A stretch of DNA of 64,000 nt, from NCBI RefSeq assembly GCF_005771635.1, contig NZ_VBWP01000004.1:1-64000 (forward strand). Direction: 5' to 3'. The position numbers and the translations under genes are program-made. Positions 15,834-47,439 of this stretch are shown piece after piece. The notes beneath the pieces are model-generated. The model did no database searches. It worked only from the letters and a program-made list of their open reading frames with translations, and had not been told where the DNA came from. The DNA is from Culicoidibacter larvae (GTDB taxonomy: Bacteria > Bacillota_I > Bacilli_A > Culicoidibacterales > Culicoidibacteraceae). The first letter of the stretch is position 1; each line of letters starts with the position of its first letter.

Positions 15834-17800
15834 ATAATAAAATAATATTAATGAGTCAGCAACTCTCTAATAAAATTGCTGCCGGAGAAGTTGTTGAACG
15901 TCCGGCTTCGGTTGTTAAGGAGTTAGTTGAAAATGCAATAGATGCCAATAGTACTGAAATCGAGGTTATTCTTCTTGATTCAGGTATTCGTTCGATTACG
16001 GTTATTGATAATGGCGATGGCATGGAACGCGAGGATGCGGTTATGGCATTTGAGCGTCATGCAACCAGCAAGATTCATGATGAATATGAATTGTTTCATA
16101 TTCAGACATTAGGATTCCGAGGGGAAGCCTTGCCGTCGATTGCGTCAGTATCGCAAGTGACGATGGAAACTTCGACCGGAGATGTTGGTACCAAGGTTGT
16201 TATTCATGGCGGTAATGAAAAAGAGGTTATTGCTACAAGTGCCCGTAAGGGAACCAAGTTTGTTGTTGAAAACTTGTTTTATAATACCCCAGCGCGGTTA
16301 AAGTATTTGAAATCAGTACATACAGAACTCGCACATATTGTTGATTTTATTAATCGTATGGCTTTAGCCCATCCGGAAATTCGTTTTCGTTTGTTGAATA
16401 ATCAAAAAGAGATTATTAAGACTTTCGGCAGTAATGATTTTAAACAAGCGCTGGCGGTTGTTTATGGCTTAGATACAGCTAAAAAGATGATGCATATTGA
16501 AGCCGAGGATTATGACTTTAAGATTGATGGTTATATTTCAATTCCGCAGGTGCAGAAAAATACGCGTAATGCGATTACGTTGATTGTCAATGGTCGTTCA
16601 ATTAAGAATTATAGTTTAATTCGCGCGATTACTGATGGCTATCATACGATGATGCCTAAAAATTGTTTTCCGATTGCTTTGTTGTCGATTACAATGGATC
16701 CGCTATTAGTTGATGTTAATGTGCATCCTTCTAAGTTAGAAGTGCGTTTTAGTAAGGAACAGCAACTCAAGGAGCTGATTACTGAAACGATTCGCAAAGT
16801 CTTGTTGCAAAAACAATTTATTACTCAGATTGAACGGCAGAAAATGCCAAAAGATACAAGTGCTCAGCAGAAAATTAGTTTTAGTGCAACTGAGAAAGCT
16901 CCCGTGGTTGAACAGCGGGAGTTTAAGTATCCTAATGCTGCGGAAACGAGAAGTGATGCGACAACGCCGAAGCGGGAGCAGGTGGCGCAGTTTATTGAGG
17001 CGATTAAGCCGGATAAGGAAGCTACGATGACGCTTAGCGAAGGTGAGCCGGAGTGGCTGGTGGATAAAACTGATGTGAATCAAGGCATGGATCCGGTGTT
17101 TGATTTACCTGGTCGCGAAACTGATGCGGCGACGCTACCTGCGGTGGAGTTGCCTGAGGCTTTACCAGAAGCAGAAGATTTGGCAGAAAAAACTTATGTT
17201 CGTGAGGAAGCTAACGCGGCGAAAATTCCTGATTTGGAAGTCATTGGGCAATTTCGCGGTACTTATATTATGGCGCAGAATGAGGATGGCTTGTTTATCA
17301 TTGATCAGCATGCGGCTCAGGAACGGATTAAGTATGAGATGTACTTTGCTCAATTGGGGCAGCCGATTACTGCTTGGCAGGATTTACTGATTCCCCATAC
17401 TATTGAGTTGCCATATAATGAGTTTATTGTTATTGATGCTCATTTGGACTTGCTGGCAGGCATTGGTTTAGTGCTTGAAGCGTTTGGGCATCAGTCATAT
17501 ATTATCCGCACAATGCCGGTATGGATGACCGGATTGCGCGAAGATGAATATATTCAAGCGATTATTGACCAAATTGTTGAGAAACAAGATATTTCGGTTG
17601 CTGATTTGCGTGAGGCAGCGGCAATTATGATGAGCTGTCGTTATTCGATCAAGGCAAATCATAATTTGACTATCACTGAGATGGAAGATTTAATTAATGA
17701 GTTGCGCAAATGTGAGAGTCCGTATACTTGTCCGCATGGACGTCCGGTTATTATTAGCTATTCGGTGTATGATGTTGAGAAATGGTTCAAAAGAGTTTAA
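15830..17800 (+). CDS. mutL: DNA mismatch repair endonuclease MutL
   Basis: Links mismatch recognition by MutS to strand nicking. The N-terminal GHKL ATPase has ENAID, DNGDGM, GFRGEALPSI and GTKFVVENLFYNTPAR. An acidic, variable linker (about residues 345-460) precedes the C-terminal dimer domain, whose endonuclease motifs are intact: DQHA-x2-E-x4-E from Asp492, SCRYSIKA and CPHGRP. It starts at ATG 15830, overlapping the cca stop, with AGAGGAG 8 nt upstream. At 656 aa it is normal. mutS is not next to it in this window, unlike the mutS-mutL order of many Bacillota. Confidence 0.97.
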   Translation: MNNKIILMSQQLSNKIAAGEVVERPASVVKELVENAIDANSTEIEVILLDSGIRSITVIDNGDGMEREDAVMAFERHATSKIHDEYELFHIQTLGFRGEALPSIASVSQVTMETSTGDVGTKVVIHGGNEKEVIATSARKGTKFVVENLFYNTPARLKYLKSVHTELAHIVDFINRMALAHPEIRFRLLNNQKEIIKTFGSNDFKQALAVVYGLDTAKKMMHIEAEDYDFKIDGYISIPQVQKNTRNAITLIVNGRSIKNYSLIRAITDGYHTMMPKNCFPIALLSITMDPLLVDVNVHPSKLEVRFSKEQQLKELITETIRKVLLQKQFITQIERQKMPKDTSAQQKISFSATEKAPVVEQREFKYPNAAETRSDATTPKREQVAQFIEAIKPDKEATMTLSEGEPEWLVDKTDVNQGMDPVFDLPGRETDAATLPAVELPEALPEAEDLAEKTYVREEANAAKIPDLEVIGQFRGTYIMAQNEDGLFIIDQHAAQERIKYEMYFAQLGQPITAWQDLLIPHTIELPYNEFIVIDAHLDLLAGIGLVLEAFGHQSYIIRTMPVWMTGLREDEYIQAIIDQIVEKQDISVADLREAAAIMMSCRYSIKANHNLTITEMEDLINELRKCESPYTCPHGRPVIISYSVYDVEKWFKRV

Positions 17801-17801
17801 T

Positions 17802-17920
17802 CTGTTGAAAAGCGCTCGCAATCTTTGAAAACCAGTAAAAATTGCTCAGTTACGTATGTTTAGATACGCGCCTTCACAATTTTTACTGGTTTCCTTTGAT
17901 TTCAATCGCTTTCAATCAGC
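17802..17920 (+). repeat. Palindromic intergenic repeat element, copy 1
   Basis: A ~119-bp imperfect palindrome beginning right after the mutL stop. A 16-bp perfect stem (17829-17844 with 17877-17892) encloses an inner hairpin CGTAT-gtttag-ATACG (17853-17868); the outer arms pair imperfectly. There is no T-run. A homologous copy lies on the minus strand at 46281-46397. Confidence 0.8.
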
Positions 17921-17947
17921 TTAAACATAATGGCATAAATTTTAATT

Positions 17948-17982
17948 TTGAGACAATAGTTTCCATGGGACTATTGTCTCAA
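17948..17982 (+). promoter_or_regulatory. 13-bp perfect hairpin in the miaA leader
   Basis: TTGAGACAATAGT (17948-17960) and ACTATTGTCTCAA (17970-17982) with a 9-nt loop holding CCATGG. It ends about 16 nt before the ribosome site of miaA and lacks a clear T-run, so an operator or a leader RNA hairpin is likelier than a terminator. Confidence 0.6.
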
Positions 17983-46244: not shown

Positions 46245-46280
46245 AATTAATCACTCCATTATTATTTTATATAGTTAGAC

Positions 46281-46397
46281 TTAATTGAAAACGCTTGAAA
46301 TCGTAGGAAACTGAAAAAATTTTGATTGAGCGTATCCAAAAATACGTGATTGAGGAATTTTTTCAGTTTGCATAGATTGCGGGCGTTTTAAATCAGT
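46281..46397 (-). repeat. Palindromic intergenic repeat element, copy 2
   Basis: Read on the minus strand it starts at the stop codon of the upstream oxidoreductase gene and aligns along its whole length with 17802-17920, by eye about three quarters identical. Shared blocks include CGCAATCT, AAAAATT, CTCA, ACGTAT-n-GATACGC, GTTTCCT and GATTTCAA. Both arms and the inner CGTAT/ATACG hairpin are preserved. Confidence 0.8.
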
Positions 46398-47409
46398 CTA
46401 ATTGAGAAATTCCGGTTTCAAGCATCTCCATCACCAGCATTGTTTCTTCGTCCTTAACAATCTTTTCTGCGCCGTCACGAATCGAGCGATACATGCCGTC
46501 ATAGATGCGACCGTAATCACCATTCTCAGAAATAACTTTTTCCTCGTGATAAACACCAGCGTCATCAATATAGGTTAGAGTGCCATAATGTTCTGGTAAG
46601 TCGATACCAAAACCAGGCTCACCCGGCATGTAGAAGAGTTTCAAATGTTCTTCCTGGCGATCAATTGTGGTTTTTTCAAACATACCCTTTTTACCATAAA
46701 CAATAAAACTAGGACGCATTTTTAAACGGAAGAAGCTCGAGCGGATAGAAACTTTTAAACGGTCATAATATAAATCAATGTCGAAGTAGTCATTGAAGCG
46801 GCCTTTACCTAGAAGTTGACGAACATCATAATGCACATTATCCGGAGCTCCAAAGAAGCTCACTGCTTGATCAATAGTATGGCAGCCATGACCATATAAA
46901 AAGCTATTAAATGGATCAAATGCTTCAACACCAAGCGGCACTTCAGGACGGAAGTAATCATAGTTCATTTCAACTTCGATAATATCACCGAGCTTGCCGC
47001 TTTTAATGACTTTCTGCATGGTTAAGAAATCTGAATCAAAACGGCGGTTTTGGTAACATTGCACCAGCAATCCTTTTTCCTTAGCATAAGCAAAAATTTC
47101 CTTAGCTTCATTACTTGTCATCATAAATGGTTTTTCAACTAAAACATGTTTGCCGGCATCAAGCACCATTTTTGCATATTCATAATGTGAATCCTGCATC
47201 GTAGCAACTACAATCATTTCAATTTCCGAATCATTAAGTAATTCCTGCAAATCCGTAGTATAATGAACCTGAGGGATTTTTTCCCAGATATCATTTTCGG
47301 GATTACGAGAGTAAATGGTTTTCACCTTAATTGTCTCGCGTTGTAAAACGAAGGGCAGGTGGTAGCGATTAACACTCTTACCATTACCAATATAACCAAT
47401 AGTTAACAT
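46393..47409 (-). CDS. Gfo/Idh/MocA-family oxidoreductase
   Basis: A 338-aa paralogue of the next gene. The N-terminus (LTIGYIGNGKSVNRYHLP) holds the nucleotide-binding strand and turn, and the EKP motif is VEKPFMMT. It ends in a C-terminal Gfo/Idh domain with a conserved GHGCHTIDQ. ATG 47409 is 9 nt after AAGGAG, whereas an in-frame GTG at 47418 touches that site. It is divergent from an RpiR regulator, which suggests control by a sugar phosphate. Confidence 0.9.
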   Translation of the reverse strand: MLTIGYIGNGKSVNRYHLPFVLQRETIKVKTIYSRNPENDIWEKIPQVHYTTDLQELLNDSEIEMIVVATMQDSHYEYAKMVLDAGKHVLVEKPFMMTSNEAKEIFAYAKEKGLLVQCYQNRRFDSDFLTMQKVIKSGKLGDIIEVEMNYDYFRPEVPLGVEAFDPFNSFLYGHGCHTIDQAVSFFGAPDNVHYDVRQLLGKGRFNDYFDIDLYYDRLKVSIRSSFFRLKMRPSFIVYGKKGMFEKTTIDRQEEHLKLFYMPGEPGFGIDLPEHYGTLTYIDDAGVYHEEKVISENGDYGRIYDGMYRSIRDGAEKIVKDEETMLVMEMLETGISQLD

Positions 47410-47439
47410 AAACTTCACTCCTTAAAGTATCTTGCATTT

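Follow-up and report, generated by a model that had tools for sequence, protein, structure and literature searches.

A probable ERIC-like family of mobile palindromic elements in a Bacillota genome

Two long palindromes lie at the ends of genes in the window (the whole stretch of DNA analysed, 64,000 nucleotides), and the question they raise is what kind of element they represent. The initial annotation had described two copies aligning end to end; they do so, and both were recovered where it had put them, with slightly wider limits (Table 1). Their description as long imperfect palindromes was likewise borne out. In copy 1, an inverted-repeat scan detected 63-nt arms (17795-17857/17864-17926), and on the strands listed the folding of copies 1 and 2 was more stable than that of 200/200 dinucleotide shuffles (z -7.8 and -6.7, respectively). 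Both window copies contain the nested CGTAT-n6-ATACG hairpin, and neither is followed by a T-run, as had been noted. As had been proposed, each copy starts at the stop of the preceding gene, in the same relative orientation: the beginning of copy 1 overlaps the mutL stop codon TAA (17798-17800), and copy 2 has its 5' end over the stop codon of a Gfo/Idh-type gene lying upstream (46393-47418, minus strand; gene end 46393).

Table 1. Coordinates and forms of the palindromic features (positions are those of the window)
Feature	Position or size	Strand	Description
Family A copy 1	17797..17921	+	between mutL and miaA; covariance-model limits
Family A copy 2	46279..46401	-	between two Gfo/Idh/MocA-type genes read on the minus strand; covariance-model limits
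Apex module, copy 1	17844..17878	+	GCTCAGTTACGTAT-GTTTAG-ATACGCGCCTTCAC
Apex module, copy 2	46323..46357	-	CCTCAATCACGTAT-TTTTGG-ATACGCTCAATC
Insert type B1			TTTC^[CGAC-hairpin-TAGT(A/C)CCTTGYGK]^AA
Insert type B2	~50 bp		CGCTGYG-stem-GGCTCTATAACC-stem-GCAAGTACTCTTGGGGTG; placed at the apex or elsewhere
Insert type B3			short form GCGCCCGTAGGAAGTACCCTTGGGGTG
Loci with hairpins ending in AAGTACYCTTGGGGTG	L022, L030, L064, L068, L069, L075-L080, L008, L017

An intrinsic terminator was ruled out, since a T-run is missing and several copies have separate terminator-like hairpins before or after them. Two other repeats were observed in the window. A short inverted repeat (TTGAGACAATAG...CTATTGTCTCAA), without a long T-run, occupies 17948-17982 between copy 1 and miaA. 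The 300-nt stretches 1-300 and 748-1047 are 100% identical, reflecting either a tandem repeat inside the first gene or an assembly effect.

The two window palindromes belong to a dispersed family, designated family A here, of about 40 scattered hairpin repeats of ~125 bp, mostly located directly behind genes. Within its own genome (2,502,375 bases in 33 contigs, 99% complete and 1.5% contaminated), copy 1 matched ~30 places by BLAST, the best other copy at E 1.5e-35. Copies were collected from the searches and from the DNA stretches around the matches, and a covariance model (R1) built from 20 of them located the family at 36 separate places with E<1e-5, rising to 39 when hits with E<=0.025 are counted; these are spread over nine contigs of the 2.5-Mb genome. 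The objections raised in advance, that the genome might contain just two copies or that their alignment would be no better than that of shuffled AT-rich palindromes, have therefore failed. The host genome behaves as a member of Bacillota, because T-box leaders are present, contamination is low, and the nearest structures to MutL and MiaA are ones that we take to come from Bacillota species. R1 detected no family A copy in 59 further genomes belonging to the same family, order or class, and the apex pattern, with 15 matches in this genome, occurred once among 194 others from the phylum. In Rfam, the window element and related loci match no curated RNA family at the gathering score, and low-score matches to plant microRNAs were dismissed as merely mirroring the long hairpin. 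A BLAST search of the apex alone against phages and plasmids returned nothing informative.

The family A consensus begins with TNAGANTG-TTGARAA-CGCYCGCAATC-TTTGAAA-(5 variable)-AAAAATTG-, continues into the apex module (CTCRGTCAC-GTAT-n6-ATAC-GCTCCCTC) and ends with -ACAATTTTT-(5 variable)-TTCCTTTGATTTCAANCGTTTTCAATCANTCT. The apex stem and its flanking loops are nearly invariant. The stems, in contrast, co-vary: changes on both sides occur in 21 of 44 pairs, and 92 double-changed stem cells were observed, whereas shuffles gave 28 +/- 5 and slid partners no more than 15. The outermost arms are locus-specific, yet they pair within each locus (7.9/12 versus 5.9 with permuted arms). TA is found at symmetrical places near both ends in 17/29 copies, a weak signal against the 11.9 +/- 1.9 obtained for permuted arms (p 0.008).

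The genomic context was assessed with a simple ORF caller, on which all of the following counts depend. In 23/40 copies, whatever the orientation, the distance to a facing stop codon is -9..+15 nt, and facing start codons occur within the same distance in just 3/41; inverted copies abut the stop codon with their 3' end. Thus, the start at an upstream stop holds for both window copies but is a strong tendency rather than a rule across the family. Codirectional genes flank 32 of 40 places, where 23 elements follow the gene orientation and 9 are inverted (one-sided p 0.010), and 5 copies are situated between divergent genes.

In at least 13 copies, smaller secondary hairpins (28-55 bp) are inserted at recurrent internal sites, and three loci (L079, L091, and L094) are reduced elements comprised of the outer arms plus B-type hairpins. 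A B2 hairpin of 51 bp at positions 1501-1551 of L076 (contig C14, ~29.5 kb) is placed in frame and fuses two reading frames, judged by eye to be amidohydrolase-like and SelA-like, into one of 763 codons. Searches of plasmids and IMG/VR with the sequence of the secondary inserts gave no match. Hairpins of ~28-55 bp ending in AAGTACYCTTGGGGTG form a separate family, whose members occur inside family A, inside other palindromes, between tRNA genes, or alone. A second type of palindrome, with the outer arm CCAAGCACATATATTGG, has the family A apex module amid unrelated stems (L067, L029, L082, and C2:58457). In addition, a very stable palindrome at ~180-360 of L031, on a contig labelled Chloroflexi, lies directly before a truB-like start and joins the apex module with GTAAGTACCTTGGTG, resembling the end of the B hairpins.

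ERIC elements (also named IRU or RU-1) have been known since 1990-91, serve as the basis of ERIC-PCR typing, and are regarded as a gammaproteobacterial peculiarity; to our knowledge, neither their way of spreading nor their mobilising enzyme is known. Their relevance here came from IMG/VR, which was scanned for the apex with variant stems on the premise that the apex stem may differ elsewhere. The scan yielded long nested palindromes with the family A apex, one of which (L138) matches 315 plasmid records, mostly from Enterobacterales, as well as 5375/5426 E. coli genomes, and is therefore ERIC. The apex pattern was also detected in contigs labelled Chloroflexi and Bacillota (L031 and L032).

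The E. coli consensus of ERIC is 127 nt long (PMC2759123), compared with 125 for family A, and each is a dispersed, multi-copy, intergenic imperfect palindrome. The GTCAC and GCTCC apex flanks are central in both, the centre reading AGTCAC-TTAC-TTAT-GTAA-GCTCC in ERIC and AGTCAC-GTAT-GTTTAG-ATAC-GCTCC in family A, and when the two consensus sequences are folded, the apex helix falls at 57-61 in each and a 3x3 loop at 28-30. The TCA/CTC loop of the apex (3x3) forms in 9/11 ERIC copies and in about one third of the predicted folds of family A; in most of the other family A copies, RNAfold keeps the TCA/CTC bases within a larger 8x8 loop. The few ERIC copies fetched begin at or beside stop codons, as family A does, and one Klebsiella ERIC holds a cluster of inserted hairpins, comparable to the inserts in family A copies. 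It was reported that ERIC has TA termini and duplicates a TA target (PMC2759123, PMC2229807); in family A, TA near the ends of part of the copies is a weak signal of the same kind. On the other hand, the stem sequence of family A is unrelated to that of ERIC, and its compact apex (CTC-RG-TCA) and 16-bp AT-rich inner helix differ from the GGGG stem and open loop of ERIC.

Sequence models link the two families weakly. The family A model retrieves no full-length ERIC, and the ERIC covariance model finds three family A copies end to end on the right strand (L050, L013, and L006), with weak E values of 0.12-0.7; over the full length, family A shows no similarity to the ERIC consensus beyond such weak end-to-end matches. 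With the ERIC model, two ERIC-like intermediates obtain E 1e-5 (L141) and 4e-4 (L137), and L134, L032, and L031 match it more weakly. A mixed superfamily model (R3), with 11 base pairs from RNAalifold, was discarded as it did not improve detection, and a 24-nt exact match in Photobacterium was judged to be due to chance, there being no such palindrome at its site. Because the stem sequence is not common to ERIC, family A is treated here as an ERIC-like variant in Bacillota rather than as proven ERIC. No report of such a family in Bacillota was found, and the main papers on ERIC (Hulton 1991; De Gregorio 2005; Wilson and Sharp 2006) may hold an earlier mention.

Taken as a whole, family A is probably a set of non-autonomous, ERIC-like mobile palindromes residing in a Bacillota genome, most likely TA-targeting and transcribed in 3' UTRs; their mobility and effect on mRNA we infer. 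By analogy with ERIC, a transposase acting in trans, as the initial annotation had suggested, would spread the copies by inserting them at TA. Insertion at TA would make TAA and TAG stop codons accepted targets, and insertions right after a reading frame would survive. The feature recognised is probably the folded arm, i.e., the stem plus the 3x3 internal loops, which would allow the structure to be retained while the stem sequence drifts. Once inserted, the element would form part of the upstream gene's transcript, as a long hairpin in the 3' UTR, and would probably alter the processing or decay of that RNA. Such a role at the 3' end of mRNA is plausible from the position of the copies and from reports on Yersinia ERIC, which changes mRNA stability depending on orientation (PMC2229807; see also PMC10969869).

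The same positions might instead mark a host-domesticated RNA element, a hairpin kept after stops to protect or tune upstream mRNA 3' ends as a stabiliser or endonuclease site, with selection on the RNA generating the covariation. The stop-codon adjacency of 23/40 copies, the 32/40 places between codirectional genes with their 23:9 orientation bias, the compensatory stem changes, and the orientation-dependent effect of Yersinia ERIC on mRNA stability (PMC2229807) all agree with this, but it is unlikely in view of the 9 inverted codirectional copies, the 5 copies between divergent genes (simple ORF calls), the inserts that break up 13 copies, and the absence of any copy from the 59 related genomes. 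Covariation could also arise through quasi-palindrome correction, in which template switching during replication copies one arm onto the other and complementarity appears without structural selection. This would account for the outer arms that are complementary within a copy and for the many pairs with compensatory changes; however, it should remove internal loops that are asymmetric, GTCAC/GCTCC for example, whereas conservation there is among the highest in the element, and it leaves the dispersal unexplained. As the origin of the family it appears quite improbable, and it may add to the covariation alongside other causes.

Convergence would make family A an independent palindrome family whose apex came to resemble that of ERIC since a protein or nuclease of one kind binds the 3x3 TCA/CTC loop in both. 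The unrelated stems and the weak cross-model scores are what such an origin predicts, but the loop bases, the apex position, and the outer loop position all coincide with ERIC, and members with other stems exist (L141 and L137, and more weakly L134, L032, and L031 by the ERIC model), which renders it very improbable. An extension of the preferred reading, that of ERIC-like mobile elements, is that ERIC itself might represent, in enterobacteria, one branch of a superfamily of mobile palindromes that spans phyla and is recognised by structure. In it, the series of internal loops would be fixed, stems would be exchanged, and elements would grow as smaller mobile hairpins insert, one after another, into loops of larger ones through an enzyme that reads folded single-stranded DNA or RNA; we hold this broader view to be possible and rather doubtful.

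Several known systems share part of these properties with the mobile palindromes of family A. The initial annotation had proposed a REP/BOX/MITE-like family; a dispersed MITE-like intergenic palindrome it is, but the REP part fell. GTAG- and CGTC-tagged REPs and REPINs with RAYT are, like family A, extragenic palindromes often behind genes. However, REPs measure 20-40 bp and bear a tetranucleotide tag (PMC3733652), against ~125 bp for the family A units, and the suggested check for a REP-associated transposase found no Y1_Tnp gene in the genome; a RAYT/REP system was therefore rejected. RUP of S. pneumoniae, a 107-bp IS630-linked MITE with a TA target (PMC2229807), resembles family A by description in its Bacillota host, its size of ~100 bp, and its TA target; in contrast to what an IS630/RUP route would suggest, the genome contains no IS630-type DDE_3 transposase, which leaves that route unsupported. 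Rickettsia palindromic elements, small palindromes able to enter reading frames, are comparable by description to the 51-bp insert of L076, whereas family A lies between genes. Closest of all known kinds is ERIC (IRU/RU-1), which a review places in the Enterobacteriaceae and Vibrionaceae (PMC10969869); the Bacillota host of family A falls outside these. The distant ERIC-like family in Bacillota, together with the MAG contigs (labelled Chloroflexi and Bacillota) that bear its apex, shows that constraint lies on the loops rather than on the stems and offers a comparative route to the mobilising factor.
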